A DNA stretch of 50,723 bases from the IMG/VR virus record IMGVR_UViG_3300032249_001122, positions 1-50,723 of that record; one strand, given 5' to 3'. The position numbers and the translations under genes were made by a program. Positions 616 to 49,586 of the stretch are shown one piece after another. Position 1 is the first letter of the stretch; each line of letters opens with the position of its first letter. The DNA comes from a virus. The notes beneath the pieces were generated by a model. The model saw nothing but the letters and a program-made list of their open reading frames with translations. It had not been told where the DNA came from and did not search any database.

Positions 616-3214
616 TAGAAACCGAGTTTACTGTACCGGATCGTACTGTGAAGGCTGCGTCATACGCCTGTTTTACGGCGCGTGGAGTTGCAGCCTGGAA
701 GGTATTGGTCGATGTGACCGTGTCTTCCAGAGTGACTACACCATTGACGGTCGCAGACGCCGCATTGGCTGTGACGGTGATTGACCCTGAACCTGTGACG
801 GGTGAGCCAGACTGGACCAGACCTGTACCTGCGATAATGGAAACAGAGTTTACCGTACCGGATCGGATAGCGAGCGACGCGACATTAGCTACACTAGCCA
901 AATCAAAGGCCTGTTTGACGGCCCTCGGTGTTGCAGCCTGGAAGGTGTTGGTTGATGTAACCGTATCCTCAAGTCTCACTTCACCGTTCTGGACGAGTGA
1001 CGCGGCTTGGATTGCAAGAGTGCGATTGGTCGTCAGATCGCCACCACCGGTCAAAGGTGAAGTCGTGGAGATCGTAAATGTATTCTGGACCTTTCCAATC
1101 AACTGCTGGGAGATCAGGAAGCCCATGTTGGCAGTAAGTGCCTGGTCTAGTCTGGCCGCTGTTAGTGTATCATTCAGACGCACAACACCATTGACGGTTG
1201 TCGAAGCATCGTTGGCAGTAACCGTGATTGTACCCGATCCGGTTACAGGTGAACCCGACTGAACAAGCCCTGTGCCGGCAATGATGGATACCGAGTTGAC
1301 CGTACCGGATCGGACCGTCAACGCCGCATCATAGGCCTGCTTCACCGCTCTTGGTGTTGCAGCTTGGAATGTATTGGACGAAGTAACCGTATCCTCAAGT
1401 CGAACTTCACCGTTTTGGGCTAGCGTCGCGGCCTGGATCGATAGAGTTCTGTTCGTGGATAGGTCGCCGCCGCCCGCAAGAGGCGAGGTCGTTGAGATGG
1501 TTGTTGTGTTCTGGACTTTTCCAATCAACTGCTGGGACAGTAGGAAACCCATATTCGCGGTGAGCGCCTGGCCTGTATTAGACGAGGTCAACGAATCATT
1601 CAGTCTCACGACACCGTTTGTTGTGGTTGACGCGTCATTAGCCGAGACGGTGATCGTACCAGTGATGGTGACAGGAGAGCCGGTTGACTGCAGTCCGTTT
1701 CCTCCGGCGACCGTTACCGATGTTACTGTTCCACCGCCACCACCGCCACCGGAACTAGGCGCAACCCATGTACCTGCTGCAGTCAGCACATACATTCCGT
1801 TGCCTGCATTGTTTGCAGGAACCAGACCAGGTCGTGTCGTAGAGCCTGCGAAGATATCCGTGTTGGAAACCTTGAAGGTGTCCAAGTAGCGGCCCATGTT
1901 CGCGGTAAGGGCCTGATTTGTGTTGGTCGATGTCAGGGTATCATTCAGTCTCACGACACCATTTACGGTGAGTGATGCATCATTGGCGGTGACTGTGATT
2001 GATCCGGTTCCAGTTACGGGCGAACCAGTTTGGACGAGTCCTGAACCTGCGATAATGGAAACCGAGTTGACGGTACCTGAACGGACGGCGAGCGCAGCAT
2101 CATACGCCTGCTTGACGGCGCGTGGAGTTGCGGCACCAAAGGTATTGGTCGAAGTAACCGTATCTTCCAGGCGAACGATACCATTTACAGAGGTCGATGC
2201 GTCGTTGGCTGTGATGGTCAGATTGGCCGAAAGTGGCCCACCACCTAGCAATCCGCTACCGGTAAAGATCGTGCGCGAATTGGCCGTGATGGAGTTCGCA
2301 AAGGCATTTGCATGGAATGTGTCAAGAATATCGGCGTGAAGATTCGAATCAGGTCCCTGATTGTTCTCATTCCAGATACGAGCAGACTGTCCTATGATAG
2401 GCTGATTCGTACCGTCAGTCGAGAACAGTCTCAGTCCGCCCGTATGTGAGTACGCAACAGGGCTTAGTGATGCCGGGAATACTGTATCATTCGGCCATTC
2501 TTCGGTGACGACCTGGAACACATAAGGCGATGCATGATTCGATGTGAGACGATATGTGTTCGCCGTCAGCACGATTTCTGGCTGATTTGTATTGACCGTA
2601 TTCAGCTTCAGATGTGGATATGGAAGAGACGGAATGCCGGTTGCCGACACGGATGCATAATAGATCGCCGAGTCGAACAGAACTCCTGTTCCGAGCGTCT
2701 GAATGCGCCAGACATAGGTTCTGTCGCCTGCAAGATTACCCGTGTTCGCTCCAGACCAATCCAGAAGCGTCGGCTGATCCGTTGCGGATGCGGTGTATTG
2801 ACGAGATGTAACATTATAGCCACCGAAATATCGCACACCACCAATAGGCGTCACATTCGACAGGGCGAGCGAATCGACAATATATTTGCCCATGTTCGCA
2901 GTGAGTGCCTGGAATGTATTAGGCGACGTGACCGTATCATTCAATCTGACAATACCATTGGAGATGAGTGTCGCCTCGGCCAGCGCACTCGCACTGTCTA
3001 CCGTCTTTAATACGAGACCGGCGTTTGTAGTATTTGACGCAAACCAATATTCAACAATGCCGTTTGCGGTGTTGACGCCAACGGTAAGCCCCTGATAACG
3101 AATTGCCGGCGTGACGTCAGCATGAACGTTTGACACATTCGCATGTGGACCATATCTGTTGTCAACAGCTCTTGGTGCCTGAACGTTCAGATTATCGTTT
3201 AAGAGAATGGGCAT
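536..3214 (-). CDS. Long tail-fibre protein with tandem fibre repeats
   Basis: This 892-residue protein starts with a unique N-terminus (MPILLNDNLNVQAP), followed by a non-repetitive domain to about residue 300. After that come several repeats of about 100-130 residues of the type GTVNSVSIIAGSGLVQSGSP / TVTANDAST / NGVVRLNDTLTSTNT / QALTANMG, with a poly-glycine linker. Such beta-rich repeats are typical of phage fibre shafts. An AGGAAG Shine-Dalgarno precedes the ATG. The last 22 codons are Arg-rich nonsense created where it crosses the head-on junction into the plus-strand fibre, so the true C-terminal tip seems lost or swapped. Adhesion to the host is inferred from family type and position. 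Confidence 0.75.
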   Translation of the reverse strand: MPILLNDNLNVQAPRAVDNRYGPHANVSNVHADVTPAIRYQGLTVGVNTANGIVEYWFASNTTNAGLVLKTVDSASALAEATLISNGIVRLNDTVTSPNTFQALTANMGKYIVDSLALSNVTPIGGVRYFGGYNVTSRQYTASATDQPTLLDWSGANTGNLAGDRTYVWRIQTLGTGVLFDSAIYYASVSATGIPSLPYPHLKLNTVNTNQPEIVLTANTYRLTSNHASPYVFQVVTEEWPNDTVFPASLSPVAYSHTGGLRLFSTDGTNQPIIGQSARIWNENNQGPDSNLHADILDTFHANAFANSITANSRTIFTGSGLLGGGPLSANLTITANDASTSVNGIVRLEDTVTSTNTFGAATPRAVKQAYDAALAVRSGTVNSVSIIAGSGLVQTGSPVTGTGSITVTANDASLTVNGVVRLNDTLTSTNTNQALTANMGRYLDTFKVSNTDIFAGSTTRPGLVPANNAGNGMYVLTAAGTWVAPSSGGGGGGGTVTSVTVAGGNGLQSTGSPVTITGTITVSANDASTTTNGVVRLNDSLTSSNTGQALTANMGFLLSQQLIGKVQNTTTISTTSPLAGGGDLSTNRTLSIQAATLAQNGEVRLEDTVTSSNTFQAATPRAVKQAYDAALTVRSGTVNSVSIIAGTGLVQSGSPVTGSGTITVTANDASTTVNGVVRLNDTLTAARLDQALTANMGFLISQQLIGKVQNTFTISTTSPLTGGGDLTTNRTLAIQAASLVQNGEVRLEDTVTSTNTFQAATPRAVKQAFDLASVANVASLAIRSGTVNSVSIIAGTGLVQSGSPVTGSGSITVTANAASATVNGVVTLEDTVTSTNTFQAATPRAVKQAYDAAFTVRSGTVNSVSIIAGSGLVRHLKRSVSRLDGRRRLSW

Positions 3215-3227
3215 TCAATATTTCTTC

Positions 3228-5876
3228 CTAGGTGTTTCTAAATTCTATTGAGCCAGAGGTTGTAGTTGAAAATCCACTGATGTATACCTTGAACGACTGT
3301 GAAGTCCAATATCCGTCAGGCGAATTCACATTTTGTAGGACAGGCGATAGAATGAATTGTCCAGGCCCGATATCACCGTTATTTAGTGCCGTATTATACC
3401 ACTTAGTCTTTGATGTGTCTGTTGCAATGTGGGCCATCCAGACATATTGCGACACCGCACCGAAAGTAACAGTAACCGTGCCGGATGAGGATGTTAGAAC
3501 CTTATTCGTAGTACCGGCCGCAATGGCAGTTGCGATGTCTCCAACCGTCGGTGCGCCAGCAGATAGTCCCCAGAAATAAGGATATATTCCAGTGACGCTG
3601 GTGGAAGACGATGTAAATGTGGTACATGCCGCCTGAGGCGCGTTAACGCTTCGGACCGCAAACGCTCTTACATCATCGACGCCTTTATTGTTTTTCTTGA
3701 CAAAACCTGCTAAATAGTTTCCTTGAGCATCCCATGATGTCGATCCCGCAACAACAACAAATATGTTTGTATTTGTGCCTAAGTATGTAAAGTTTGGTTT
3801 GTTTGGATTGGTATATCCAAACTGATCGGAGACGTTTGTGGTAATGGTCGTAACCAATGCCGTATTTGTGTTAATAGTCGAGCCGCCTCTTCTGAATGCT
3901 ATTGCCGTGAACGTGTTCGCATCGTTCTTTGTGCCAGTCGATGTCATCGTCTGAGTAATGGTACTTCCGATTTCTTGTGTACCAGAAACAGTACCACTGA
4001 ACGATATCGTTGGATTGGTATAGGTCGGAAGCACATCCGGAAACAGAATCGTATCCAATACTTGAACAACATTTCTTGTTTTCCAGACTGCCGCATTCGC
4101 AACAGCCGCTCCTCCCACCGCAATACTATCAACCGAATCAGATATTGAGGTGTTATAGATTGTGGATAGGACATTTGTAGCTGGATTCAGTGCGAGCGCA
4201 ACATTGGACGCAACAGTGATTGTTTGACCGTCGCCTCCTCCGCCGCCACCACCGACAGGAGGTGCAACCCACGTTCCCGCGGCCGTCAGAAGGAACTGAC
4301 CGTTGCCGGCAGTGTTAGCAGGCACAAGACCTGGGCGGGTTGTCGAACCGGCAAAGATGTCCGTATTGGAGACCTTGAAGGTATCCAGATAGCGACCCAT
4401 GTTGGCCGTGAGAGCCTGATTGGTATTTGTCGATGTGAGCGTATCGTTTAGTCGGACCACGCCATTCACCGTCGTGGATGCGTCATTGGCCGATAGTGTA
4501 ATGGAACCTGTGTCCGTGACAGGAGAACCAGATGAAACAAGACCTGTGCCGGCCAATACAGATACGGAGTTGACGGTACCGGATCGGATTGAGAATGCAG
4601 TTGTGTTGATCGACGCCGCAAAGGTATTCGCGAATGTCGCAATACGATGAACAGTATTCACCGCATTAGGAGTTGCGGCACCGAAGATGTTAGCCGATGT
4701 GACGGTATCATTGAGACGCGTTTCACCGTTCTGGGTAACTGTTGCCGCCTGAATAGACAAGGTCAGCGAAGATGAGAGCGTACCACCACCCGACAAAGGA
4801 GATGTGGTAGAAATAGAGGTGGTGTTCTGTACTTTTCCAACAAGCTGTTGAGAAATCAAGAATCCCATATTTGCGGTAAGGGCCTGATTCGTATTGGAAG
4901 AGGTCAGCGTGTCATTGAGGCGTACCACACCGTTGACGGTGGTTGACGCGTCGTTCGCGGAAACTGAAATCGTTCCCGAACCCGTAATCGGCGATCCGGA
5001 CGATGTAAGGCCTGTACCCGTCGATACAGATACAGAGTTGACCGTACCTGAACGAACCGAGTATAGCGCAGTATTGACTGTACTTACAAGAGTATTTGCG
5101 AATACTGCGATGCGATGGACCGCATTTACTGAATTAGGAGTTGCCGCTCCAAAGGTATTCGCGGAGTCTACAACATCCGTCAGTCGTACTATACCGTTAA
5201 CGGAAAGCGACGCGGCATTTGCGGAAAGAGTAATCGTTCCGGAGTCCGTGATGGGAGAACCGGAAGAGATAAGACCGGTCGATGCCGCGACCGTGACTGA
5301 GTTGACGGTACCAGAACGAACACCGGATGCGGAAGTAACTGCGGTCGCCGCAACTCTCTGAACGGCATTGAAGGCATTGGCCGTCGCCGCTTGGAATGTA
5401 TTTGTCGAGAATACAGAATCTTGCAGACGCACGACACCGTTGGTGGTGATCGATGCATCATTAGCCGAGATCGTCCGATTGGTCGTGAAGTCGCCACCAC
5501 CGACCAGACCGTTTCCGGTCGAGATCGTGAATGTGTTCTGGACCTTGCCGTCGAATAGCGACGCAATATAATAACCCATGTTCGCAGTGAGCGCCTGGGT
5601 TGTGGACAATGAAAGTAGGGAGTCCTGAAGACGAACGATACCGGTCTGGGAAGTCGATGCCTGATTGGCAGTGATCGTAATGATTCCGGAAATCGTGATA
5701 GGCGAACCGGACTGACGAAGCCCTTCGGAGGTCGCAATGGACACCGACTGAACCGTACCGGCCGCAAGAGTCGCATCCGATGTGATGCCTATCTGTCGGA
5801 CACCGGAACGCGTCTGCTGATCAACAGAAATACGCTGTGGTGTTGGATTATTGACGGTTACTCTAATATTGGGCAC
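3228..5876 (-). CDS. Long tail-fibre protein with tandem fibre repeats and distinct C-terminal domain
   Basis: This 882-residue protein is a paralogue of the gene downstream. It has five or six repeats of the GTVNSVSV-xGTGLxSSGSP / ANDASTTVNGVVRLNDT / NxNQALTANMG type, then a glycine linker after TWVAP, then a non-repetitive domain of about 300 residues that ends without repeats. That domain is likely the distal receptor-contacting part. The start is GTG, with a purine-rich AAGGGG about 13 bases upstream and a CATAAATA late box at 5919-5926. DNA identity with the neighbouring fibre genes is high enough to read by eye, so homologous exchange between them is likely. Confidence 0.78.
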   Translation of the reverse strand: MPNIRVTVNNPTPQRISVDQQTRSGVRQIGITSDATLAAGTVQSVSIATSEGLRQSGSPITISGIITITANQASTSQTGIVRLQDSLLSLSTTQALTANMGYYIASLFDGKVQNTFTISTGNGLVGGGDFTTNRTISANDASITTNGVVRLQDSVFSTNTFQAATANAFNAVQRVAATAVTSASGVRSGTVNSVTVAASTGLISSGSPITDSGTITLSANAASLSVNGIVRLTDVVDSANTFGAATPNSVNAVHRIAVFANTLVSTVNTALYSVRSGTVNSVSVSTGTGLTSSGSPITGSGTISVSANDASTTVNGVVRLNDTLTSSNTNQALTANMGFLISQQLVGKVQNTTSISTTSPLSGGGTLSSSLTLSIQAATVTQNGETRLNDTVTSANIFGAATPNAVNTVHRIATFANTFAASINTTAFSIRSGTVNSVSVLAGTGLVSSGSPVTDTGSITLSANDASTTVNGVVRLNDTLTSTNTNQALTANMGRYLDTFKVSNTDIFAGSTTRPGLVPANTAGNGQFLLTAAGTWVAPPVGGGGGGGDGQTITVASNVALALNPATNVLSTIYNTSISDSVDSIAVGGAAVANAAVWKTRNVVQVLDTILFPDVLPTYTNPTISFSGTVSGTQEIGSTITQTMTSTGTKNDANTFTAIAFRRGGSTINTNTALVTTITTNVSDQFGYTNPNKPNFTYLGTNTNIFVVVAGSTSWDAQGNYLAGFVKKNNKGVDDVRAFAVRSVNAPQAACTTFTSSSTSVTGIYPYFWGLSAGAPTVGDIATAIAAGTTNKVLTSSSGTVTVTFGAVSQYVWMAHIATDTSKTKWYNTALNNGDIGPGQFILSPVLQNVNSPDGYWTSQSFKVYISGFSTTTSGSIEFRNT

Positions 5877-32273: not shown

Positions 32274-32281
32274 TATTTATG
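32274..32281 (-). promoter_or_regulatory. Late promoter box CATAAATA for the baseplate unit
   Basis: The minus strand reads CATAAATA, 43 bases before the gp48 ATG, in the divergent gap. It overlaps the ATG of gp4 on the other strand. It could drive the whole minus-strand baseplate operon. Confidence 0.6.
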
Positions 32282-40708: not shown

Positions 40709-41326
40709 TTAGAACGCGAAGTTGACGGACGCAACGATTGAACTGTTGCCACCGTCCGAGAGTTCCGTATTGAGAACTTCAATAGCGGGACCCTGCATGT
40801 AACGATAACCGACGCCGGCTGTTACGCCAGGTGCGATATCGGTGTTGATGCCAGCACCAAGCTGCCATGCAACGCCAGATGCTTCAAGCTTGAGCAAAGA
40901 AACATCTTCGAAGGTTGCAGTTGTCTTGGCATAGCCTACGCCAGCCAAAACATAAGGACGCACAGGACCGAGGTCCACAGGTACGTCATACACGACATTA
41001 CCGAGAATGGCAGTCGTTTCATGCTGTGCATTGATCTTTCCACCGAAGATATCAACATCGTTCGAGCGGTTGGACAAGTCGGCTTCAATACGAAGACCTT
41101 TCACTGCATTCACGCGAGTGCCGACAACGCCGCCGACTGTGTAGCCGGAATTGTCATCAACAAACTTGGAATTGATAACATCATCCCAATTTGCGCCACC
41201 GTAGATTCCGACATAGGAACCGCCGGTGAATGCACCGTCGCCAGCCGAAGCCACTTCAGACAGACCGATAAGCGTTCCGACTGACAAAGCGACAACTGCC
41301 GCCGTTTTAATGAGAGCATTCTTCAT
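40709..41326 (-). CDS. Outer-membrane beta-barrel protein, Omp25/OmpA-like
   Basis: This 205-residue protein has a clear signal peptide (residues 1-28, ending SEVASAG), then alternating amphipathic strands (GSYVGIYGGANWDD, YTVGGVVGTRVNAVKGLRIE, TAILGNVVYDVPVDLGPVRP, YVLAGVGYAKTTATFED, VAWQLGAGINTDIAPGVTAG, VGYRYMQGP). The C-terminal strand ends in Phe (SSIVASVNFAF), the signal for the Bam machinery. This is the eight-strand barrel of the OMP_b-brl/Omp25 group common in Rhizobiales and Brucella. A phage copy could change receptor display or exclude later phages, as proposed for lambda Lom; that is inference. AAGGAG precedes the ATG. Confidence 0.88.
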   Translation of the reverse strand: MKNALIKTAAVVALSVGTLIGLSEVASAGDGAFTGGSYVGIYGGANWDDVINSKFVDDNSGYTVGGVVGTRVNAVKGLRIEADLSNRSNDVDIFGGKINAQHETTAILGNVVYDVPVDLGPVRPYVLAGVGYAKTTATFEDVSLLKLEASGVAWQLGAGINTDIAPGVTAGVGYRYMQGPAIEVLNTELSDGGNSSIVASVNFAF

Positions 41327-41372: not shown

Positions 41373-41410
41373 AAAAAAGGCAGTTTTTTCTGTTGCCATG
41401 AAAAACTGCC
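41373..41410 (-). terminator. Terminator of the tmRNA gene
   Basis: The minus strand forms a 10-base stem GGCAGTTTTT/AAAAACTGCC with a 12-base loop, followed by six T. It lies directly after the tmRNA coding piece. Confidence 0.9.
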
Positions 41411-41427
41411 AAAACACCGTCTAGAGA

Positions 41428-41469
41428 CTAAGCCGCGAGGGCATAGTCCATAGGCACATTGTCATTAGC
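41428..41469 (-). other. tmRNA tag reading frame (ANDNVPMDYALAA, TAG stop)
   Basis: Thirteen codons from GCT to GCT followed by TAG. ANDN is the usual alphaproteobacterial tag start and ALAA a ClpXP-type end; the VPMDY centre is unlike tags I recall. A GCA triplet directly before could be the real resume codon, which would add one Ala. Confidence 0.88.
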
Positions 41470-41560
41470 TGCGACATTTACAGTTTTGGAACGATGAGGA
41501 GTTCCGGGCCACTGATCTACTGAACTTCTACTCGCCATCCGTCGAATCTATGTCATCCCC

Positions 41561-41638
41561 ATCAGAGATACAGCGGCGACAATATTAGAGACCTTTGCTC
41601 TTATCATCGGGACGGTCATGCGAGGACCGCTGTATCTT
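41561..41638 (-). other. Processed spacer between tmRNA acceptor and coding pieces
   Basis: This 78-base segment starts and ends with arms of a perfect 11-base inverted repeat, so the precursor folds as a hairpin that would place both mature ends at its base. In alphaproteobacteria the matching loop is cut out, leaving two RNA pieces. Confidence 0.75.
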
Positions 41639-41707
41639 TGGTGGAGATGGCGGGTACTGCCCCCGCGTCCGAATGCACTTTCGTTGAACTATCAACAATC
41701 AGTCTAC

Positions 41708-41715
41708 TATTTATA
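41708..41715 (-). promoter_or_regulatory. Late promoter box TATAAATA (exact T4 consensus)
   Basis: The minus strand reads TATAAATA. With the T4 spacing, transcription would start near 41702, the expected 5' end of the tmRNA acceptor piece. It lies in the gap after the gene that ends at 41748. Confidence 0.8.
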
Positions 41716-41747
41716 CACGAACCCTAACCATAAGTCAAGTGGTTTCT

Positions 41748-44030: not shown

Positions 44031-44059
44031 ATGATACACTAACGCGGCGTGAAAGTCAA
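44031..44059 (-). promoter_or_regulatory. Host sigma70-type promoter TTGACT-N17-TATCAT
   Basis: On the minus strand TTGACT (44059-44054) and TATCAT (44036-44031) are separated by 17 bases. The predicted start point, about 7 bases further, coincides with the ATG of the downstream gene. Confidence 0.65.
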
Positions 44060-44709
44060 GTTTTCTTTTTGGTTACCAACTGCGTGATCTTGTGAATCTT
44101 GATGGAGTCGGAATTGTACGGCATGTATACATTATGCCTGGTCGCCATGTTCATGTTCTCGCCGCCATTATACCTGATTCCGTCATAGCCCTTCTTGATC
44201 AGATGGTCGCGGGCTGCAGCGGTATTAATGCCACCTCGCGACAGTCCGAAGAATACCTGTTTTCCGGTAAGCTTATGTTTGCCATCTTTCAGGTCATTGA
44301 GGACCTGATGTCGATCTGTTCCAGCTTTCATGAGTCCTGCGGAACGTGCGAACTGTTCATGATGTTTAGGATCGTCAGGCAACACATGCTTGAGTTTGTC
44401 GCCGTGGAACTCATGATCCACATCGAACACATTCTTCATCTTGAGTTTTGTATGATACACATACGGCGTCGCCGTCTTTGCGTGACGGGCCATCGAGCGC
44501 GCATAGGTCTTGGATACGTCATGATGATCCGTGAAGTATCCTACTCCACCGCCCATGTGATCATTAGGAATGCGGGCATGTTTCTGTTCGAACTTCTTGA
44601 ACAGACGTCCTGATCCGTGATATGCATCCACCTCGACGGGGTTATGTGCACCGGTGGGGTTTCCCCCACCGGATTCTTCTTCTCTCAGGAAGTCGCTAAA
44701 CTTTTTCAT
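44056..44709 (-). CDS. ADP-ribosyltransferase-like protein with capsid-targeting-like N-terminus
   Basis: This 217-residue protein resembles the ART-PolyVal type of ADP-ribosyltransferase folds: VDAYHGSGRLFKKFEQKH (residues about 27-44), HMGGGVGYFTDHHDVSKTYA (about 51-70), a TPYVYHTKLKMKNVFDVDH strand pair, and GYDGIRYNGGEN followed by HNVYMPYNSDSIKIHK. That is the usual order of His, Tyr and terminal strands. The first residues MKKFSDFLREEE resemble the capsid-targeting peptide MKTYQEFIAE of T4 internal proteins, with an LRE site like those cut by gp21 protease. It may be packed in the head and injected, like T4 Alt; this is inference. AGGA precedes the ATG, which overlaps the phoH end. Confidence 0.6.
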   Translation of the reverse strand: MKKFSDFLREEESGGGNPTGAHNPVEVDAYHGSGRLFKKFEQKHARIPNDHMGGGVGYFTDHHDVSKTYARSMARHAKTATPYVYHTKLKMKNVFDVDHEFHGDKLKHVLPDDPKHHEQFARSAGLMKAGTDRHQVLNDLKDGKHKLTGKQVFFGLSRGGINTAAARDHLIKKGYDGIRYNGGENMNMATRHNVYMPYNSDSIKIHKITQLVTKKKT

Positions 44710-49512: not shown

Positions 49513-49586
49513 TGGTAGTCCCTGAAGGTTACGCTCCTTCGACTTTTGCATGTCGAGCAAATGTATTCCTATTATACTAAGGGACT
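49513..49586 (-). tRNA. tRNA-like gene with perfect stems but odd anticodon and T-loops
   Basis: AGTCCCT/AGGGACT acceptor, T8-A9, D-stem GTAT/ATAC with GG in the loop, anticodon stem TTTGC/GCAAA, T-stem GAAGG/CCTTC, A73 and encoded CCA. All stems pair fully. The anticodon loop is TCGACAT (GAC, Val, but C33 instead of T33) and the T-loop AGCGTAA. The plus strand would give GTC with T33, but the spacing of arms and the CCA fit only the minus strand. Confidence 0.6.

Follow-up and report, generated by a model that had tools for sequence, protein, structure and literature searches.

The window analysed here is a viral contig of 50,723 bases from a T4-like phage with genes for baseplate, tail tube, gp32, gp59 and PhoH proteins, and a complete permuted tmRNA is encoded on its minus strand at 41742–41377, as found in silico with Rfam models and by direct reading. 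The phage-borne, two-piece form claimed for this strand in an earlier sequence-only reading was confirmed by full-length matches above the cut-offs to RF04321 tmRNA_permuted (86.1 bits, E 3.4e-15, cut-off 47) and RF01849 alpha_tmRNA (73.7 bits, E 2.8e-18, cut-off 50), the latter being the covariance-model check which that reading had proposed and the sole RF01849 match within the record. ARAGORN detected no tmRNA in the window, so routine annotation would overlook it. By direct reading, GGGGATG (41560–41554) of the coding piece pairs with CATCTCC of the acceptor piece in a 7-bp acceptor stem containing G3:U70, CCA follows, and the T-loop is of the alpha type (GGCAGTA). At the spacer (41638–41561) the closing stem is an 11-bp perfect inverted repeat (AGATACAGCGG/CCGCTGTATCT). 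The loop of the terminator hairpin, identical in the nearest related contig (L091), retains GGCAACAGAA as in the tmRNA model for alphaproteobacteria. The acceptor stem, of which compensatory variants occur in relatives, the inverted repeat and the tmRNA's own terminator are all as the sequence-only reading had described them. Coordinates are collected in table 1.

Table 1. Features of the tmRNA locus and of its spacer (window coordinates).
Feature	Position	Strand	Basis or remark
-35 hexamer TTGACT, 17 nt before TATAAA	41733..41738	-	also in L091, L200
TATAAATA: sigma70 -10 and/or T4-type late box	41708..41715	-	motif scans, relatives
Acceptor piece (tRNA-like 3' half, T arm, CCA)	41639..41703	-	direct reading, Rfam
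Acceptor 3' strand CATCTCC	41649-41643	-	followed by discriminator A and CCA (41641-41639)
Removed spacer (ITS), 78 nt, with outer stem	41561..41638	-	repeat analysis, spacer comparison
Structured RNA element in spacer, unnamed	41566..41637	-	family alignment, covariation
Element P1 (outer stem)	41637-41627/41576-41566	-	
Element P2 (4-bp hairpin)	41623-41621/41609-41607	-	
Element probable pseudoknot	GACC 41617-41614 with GGTC 41593-41590	-	
Coding piece and its 3' hairpin	41373..41560	-	direct reading, Rfam; begins GGGGATGACATAGATTCGACGG at 41560
Tag reading frame AANDNVPMDYALAA + TAG	41428..41472	-	direct reading, frames of relatives
3' hairpin and terminator	41373..41410	-	10-bp hairpin 41410-41379 plus T6

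Other features of the record were noted alongside. The gene directly downstream of the tmRNA (40709–41326, minus) encodes an outer-membrane beta-barrel protein (PF13505, E 1.7e-15) with a signal-peptide-like start, which is 84% identical in L091 and unusual for a phage. The protein encoded next to PhoH (44056–44709, minus) has a match to a polyvalent-protein ADP-ribosyltransferase domain (PF18760) that, at 29.1 bits, stays below the cut-off of 31.2, and a tRNA at 49516–49586 (minus) was found by Rfam (51 bits) and was absent from the ARAGORN output.

L091, the nearest contig found (gp32 88%), keeps the gene order and the tmRNA, with acceptor and coding pieces 94% and 89% identical to those of the window; its acceptor stem is changed to GGGTGCG/CGCATCC and fully paired through compensation, its tag reads ANDNSPMTQELRLAA and its terminator is intact. 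In every phage tmRNA that could be parsed by script all seven acceptor-stem pairs were formed despite differing sequences, and the tmRNA is therefore not a product of chance. Permuted tmRNAs above the cut-off were found in 37 of the 50 gp32/PhoH T4-like relatives scanned, and the order PhoH–exonuclease–tmRNA–gp59–gp32 is conserved in L230, a far more distant phage (gp32 45%). Two-piece tmRNAs of marine and aquatic phages have been published, 53 of 133 phage tmRNA structures being called two-piece (PMC9004378), and 79 sequences from bacteriophages, counting every form, are listed in the tmRNA database (PMC11915505). Given the 37 relatives, the distant synteny and the published cases (PMC9004378), a two-piece tmRNA is a known trait of this phage lineage, and the novelty which the sequence-only reading attached to it was overstated. 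That the tmRNA was captured from a host and survives as a non-functional relic is hardly credible: SmpB was not found in the 50.7-kb record (possibly a fragment), so that host SmpB would be needed, but the stem of L091 is compensated and its tag and terminator are intact, the synteny has held across phages at gp32 45%, and the tmRNA is widespread in the lineage. The comparisons show a complete tmRNA evidently under purifying selection, real yet ordinary for its lineage.

The window shares with the alphaproteobacterial two-piece tmRNAs (RF01849/RF04321) the order acceptor piece–spacer–coding piece, the 7-bp stem, G3:U70, the alpha-type T-loop, the ANDN start of the tag and the 3' loop GGCAACAGAA; it differs from them in being phage-borne, in the conserved independent RNA held by its 78-nt spacer and in its tag centre, VPMDY. 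Melnitz, a phage of Methylophilales, and the pelagimyophages are, like the source of the window, myophages of aquatic habitats that have T4-like genes and a two-piece ssrA of the alpha type, but the ssrA of Melnitz, unlike that of the window, is reported with a glutamine riboswitch, and no description of the spacer element was found in the consulted sections (PMC9004378).

The tag frame ending in TAG that had been proposed is present at 41472–41428 (GCA-GCT-AAT-GAC-AAT-GTG-CCT-ATG-GAC-TAT-GCC-CTC-GCG-GCT-TAG) and reads AANDNVPMDYALAA*, with an Ala resume codon and an AA end; either GCA or the following GCT may be the resume codon, giving an encoded tag of 13 or 14 residues. The exact tag was found in no other virus of the viral collection, and a genome scan for ANDN-x(3-4)-DYALAA, with GAC only for the first D, returned 13 stretches, none of them titled alphaproteobacterial. 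The tags of sister phages are equally variable in the middle (ANDNFAPVDYALAA, ANDNFASQDYALAA, ANDNSPMTQELRLAA) and still end in AA or LAA. The description of the tag as unusual was overstated, and the tag is a variant inside a fast-changing group. AA and LAA ends are typical of ClpXP degrons. Since the centres vary among sister tags and the ends are kept, there is no sign of a different protease, and the different protease outcome that the sequence-only reading drew from VPMDY is not borne out. Separately, the tmRNAs of two other contigs (L171 and L072) carry the tag ANDAFYGEDRLAA, far from the usual ANDE..ALAA centre.

Upstream of the tmRNA, a TATAAA -10 ends 6 nt ahead of position 41703, where the RF04321 match begins, and the hexamers and spacing TTGACT-N17-TATAAA are common to L091 and L200. 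TTGACA-N17-TATAAATA lies ahead of the tmRNA in L230, a perfect TTGACA/TATAAT pair lies immediately upstream in L177, L187, L189, L192 and L194, and in several relatives a perfect consensus sigma70 promoter stands where the late box is absent. The exact T4 late box claimed before the 5' end is there (41715–41708) as the single copy of TATAAATA in the window, against a chance expectation of 0.60; taken alone it is weak evidence, because 46% of shuffled windows carry at least one. TATAAATA is about two-fold enriched in relatives (69 versus 31.7), and [ACGT]ATAAATA occurs nine times in the record against 4.7 expected, with three minus-strand sites 27–42 nt before genes of the tail block, the tail tube cap gene included, and two plus-strand sites 29 and 40 nt before genes. 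As [CGT]ATAAATA lies 27–42 nt before several genes of the record, a T4-like late signal is credible; these sites speak against mere chance as an explanation of the box, and a T4-type late box at the tmRNA is plausible. The late box was ruled out as the sole promoter by the sigma70 -35 that relatives conserve at 17 nt and by the several relatives with a sigma70 promoter only. The promoter is readable by sigma70 and possibly also as a phage late promoter, and both readings stand; of the late expression proposed earlier the late signal survives, but exclusively late expression is unsupported, since the same bases form a sigma70 -10. A possible late-promoter variant, [CG]ATAAATA, was observed 27–42 nt before genes at 32281, 6319 and 5926 (minus) and 35154 (plus), three of these sites lying within the tail gene block.

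The most striking part of the locus, passed over by the sequence-only reading, is the removed spacer. When the tmRNA region was compared by BLAST, unrelated phages were matched mainly in the spacer: Rhodococcus phages Francesca and Dorin at 88% over 50 nt, Microbacterium phage Zooman at 78% over 54 nt and Sulfitobacter phages at 88% over 41 nt. A tRNA-Lys gene lies about 7 nt beyond the end of the match in Francesca and Zooman. A strict pattern scan gave 39 viral stretches; from the additional ones returned by a wider scan, 16 were accepted into the family, which as found comprises 49 distinct phage members. Nearly all have an outer stem of variable sequence (P1), a short hairpin (P2), a loop GACC and a downstream GGUC. 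The covariance model R1 matched the window at 41640–41560 with 88.1 bits, the window sequence having been included in its construction.

In an alignment of 25 sequences all 10 outer-stem pairs show changes on both sides, and the covariation score of the stem was 0.408 against 0.152 in shuffles, with none of 500 shuffles as high; it collapsed when the partners were slid by 1–3 columns. The P2 pairs were always standard in 47 sequences, with four Watson–Crick types at pair 19-33 (CG 32, UA 12, AU 2, GC 1) and three at pair 18-34 (UA 27, CG 18, GC 2). G-U pairs outnumbered A-C mismatches in P1 (16 versus 5, on a somewhat biased scoring), which together with the strand of the adjacent genes (29 of 29 on that of the element) points to an RNA. 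GACC and GGUC were invariant across members, although GACC/GGTC was prescribed by the search patterns, and the single scan in which it was left free constrained other positions; as the two strands never vary, we infer the probable pseudoknot purely from conservation and complementarity. The alignment holds 19 invariant columns, partly imposed by the search patterns.

No match below E 0.18 was found with R1 over 775 kb of T4-like relatives. A search of Rfam 15 at relaxed E-value returned tmRNA, tRNA, manA and spurious matches only, with no family that explains the element, and Rfam ribozyme families did not match the window element at E<=10. The element was not found in E. coli genomes, and among plasmids it was present in one Sulfitobacter record. 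In the open-access literature a 13-base piece of the core occurred in one unrelated match, and a search by topic found no description of the element, which is apparently an undescribed structured RNA family. A known ribozyme or riboswitch was rejected because the relaxed-threshold Rfam search yielded no family for the element, and hammerhead, HDV, twister and pistol were rejected because their layouts, compared by eye, did not fit.

Placement of the family was examined relative to tRNA and tmRNA genes. Twenty-six of the 49 members lie within 50 nt of one, against 6.5 expected for random positions in the same tRNA-rich stretches, and all 29 adjacent tRNA or tmRNA genes are on the strand of the element. 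Members abut the 3' end of a tRNA, the 5' end, or both, the 5' end as often as the 3', and in L221 and L256 the element sits between two tRNAs. It is present as a single copy in 38 of 40 records, though many have 10–20 tRNAs nearby, and for roughly half of the members no tRNA lies within 50 nt. Where tmRNAs are concerned, the element occurred in four settings: inside the spacer of the tmRNA in the window, inside the spacer of tmRNAs of the L223/L230/L239 type (RF01849 94 bits, tag ANDNALIETRLAA), 39 nt upstream of a one-piece tmRNA in L254 and, in L318, with a one-piece tmRNA on one side and a tRNA on the other. Most stand-alone copies have no clear promoter. The copy in L247 is closely preceded by a perfect sigma70 promoter and has a run of U following P1, and that in L249 is closely preceded by a late box.

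GOLLD and ROOL are structured RNAs nested in phage tRNA arrays. In Francesca a manA RNA (RF01745, 72.9 bits) was observed at 1135–1317, between tRNA-Met and tRNA-Lys; it is, like the element, an RNA of a phage tRNA array, about 0.2 kb upstream of the element, but manA RNA, GOLLD and ROOL are all far larger and belong to unrelated families. Theta ribozymes, which are HDV-like, resemble the element as small structured RNAs flush with phage tRNA ends (PMC10879173). The element departs from them in strand order and sequence, in abutting both 5' and 3' tRNA ends, and in being mostly single-copy and found also without tRNAs. The nested double pseudoknot of the theta/HDV-like fold (P1, P2, P3 and P1.1, with cleavage 5' of P1) does not describe it, and covariation instead supports an outer closing stem with a short hairpin inside.

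The element might be imagined as a cis-acting processing module that helps to part neighbouring tRNA or tmRNA pieces, for instance as a small self-cleaving ribozyme of a new kind or as a landing site for a nuclease. Its position flush with mature tRNA ends, between tRNAs, between tmRNA and tRNA and, in the window, between the two tmRNA pieces would suit such a role, as would a compact core rich in invariant bases, which is typical of ribozymes, and theta ribozymes act in this way at the 3' ends of phage tRNAs (PMC10879173). We nevertheless regard a processing module as rather unlikely, since a genome with many tRNAs usually has one copy, 5' ends are abutted as often as 3' ends, stand-alone copies lack a nearby tRNA, and a closing stem with a hairpin inside misfits the HDV-like strand order. 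A cis-regulatory RNA for downstream genes, be it an attenuator, antiterminator or ligand-binding leader, appears more improbable still. Ten of 33 members have at least five T in the 8 nt past the seventh P1 pair, and several lie shortly upstream of genes; yet the genes downstream of stand-alone copies are unrelated, save in two pairs of similar loci, the element is also found downstream of tRNAs, and a terminator within the tmRNA spacer would abolish the coding piece. Single copy, indifference to the neighbouring tRNA, adjacency to both 5' and 3' ends and stand-alone copies favour a trans-acting RNA over a ribozyme processing each tRNA, and of the roles considered for the element a free trans-acting small RNA is the likeliest.

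Spacers were also compared between tmRNAs. Those of the window and L230 are 88% identical without gaps, and 47 of 48 core positions are shared. Nearly all of the remaining changes fall in the outer stem, and most are compensatory. The coding pieces, by contrast, are 73% identical with gaps. A core near-identical in distant phages, within surrounding RNA that has diverged, implies strong function or recent exchange. In the closer L091 the spacer insert is largely unrelated and the closing stem alone remains; the element is thus dispensable for the tmRNA. The insert of L091 had no match in the phage collection. Across some 40 phage tmRNAs the spacer measures 11–186 nt, and nearly all longer spacers have TGAT before G1 and keep the closing stem. 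That the insert is neutral or selfish, with no role of its own, could be argued from such hypervariability and from the swapping of inserts between close relatives; it is very unlikely in view of the strong covariation, the invariant columns (owed in part to the search patterns) and a core better conserved between the window and L230 than the tmRNA itself.

The three longest spacers contain open frames longer than those of most shuffles (p 0.03–0.04 each, uncorrected), and the tmRNAs concerned (L029, L089 and L145) are all Rfam-confirmed. In the first (IMGVR_UViG_3300042309_001896, permuted tmRNA at 3091–3557, 186-nt spacer) a 78-codon frame begins in the spacer and extends into the coding piece, and its residues 3–56 match the C-terminal 54 positions of phrog_4098 (E 1.1e-10); a gene, or part of a protein, may be embedded in this tmRNA spacer. 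The spacer frame of L145/L200 has a CxC...CCGxC pattern and likewise extends into the coding piece, that of L089 comprises 50 codons wholly inside the spacer, and Pfam gave no support for either. An unannotated permuted alpha tmRNA was also noted in Mesorhizobium phage Cp1R7A-A1 (L214; MT188704.1, about 58,700–59,100; RF01849 112 bits; ARAGORN tag VAANDNHFEARALAA), whose spacer has GTTCGTT...TTCCCGATG in common with that of L091, possibly a second spacer RNA module. Taken together, the spacer appears to behave as an exchangeable cargo site.

Our best explanation, held at about even confidence, is a working alpha-type two-piece tmRNA whose spacer would carry an independent, trans-acting RNA released by processing. 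We infer the following course for its transcription, processing, release, stability and action in trans. A single precursor would be transcribed from the sigma70-readable, possibly also late, promoter. Host RNase P would cut at G1 of the coding piece and tRNA 3'-processing enzymes at the acceptor CCA, so that, on established biology, the spacer would be released, and the two tmRNA pieces would use host SmpB. The freed RNA would be compact, about 75 nt, with the outer stem, the small hairpin and the pseudoknot; tRNA-type processing would give it clean ends, and it would be stable and act in trans in the infected cell. More tentatively, and in our estimate somewhat doubtful, the tmRNA spacer of phages may serve as a cargo bay that releases its contents, the cargo here being a new family of host-manipulating, trans-acting pseudoknot RNAs. 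That family would be shared by phages of Actinobacteria and Proteobacteria and might, for instance, titrate a nuclease or a defence factor, and small open reading frames would occupy the spacer in other phages.

By itself the tmRNA adds one further phage two-piece tmRNA missed by standard software. What is new is the spacer RNA family, together with the view that the tmRNA spacer serves as a cargo site open to exchange. The family spans phages of Rhodococcus, Microbacterium and Sulfitobacter as well as T4-like phages, and it offers a short, testable sequence in the culturable phages Francesca, Dorin, Zooman and pCB2047-A/C. It suggests that phages may use the excised segment of a permuted tmRNA as a delivery site for other genes.
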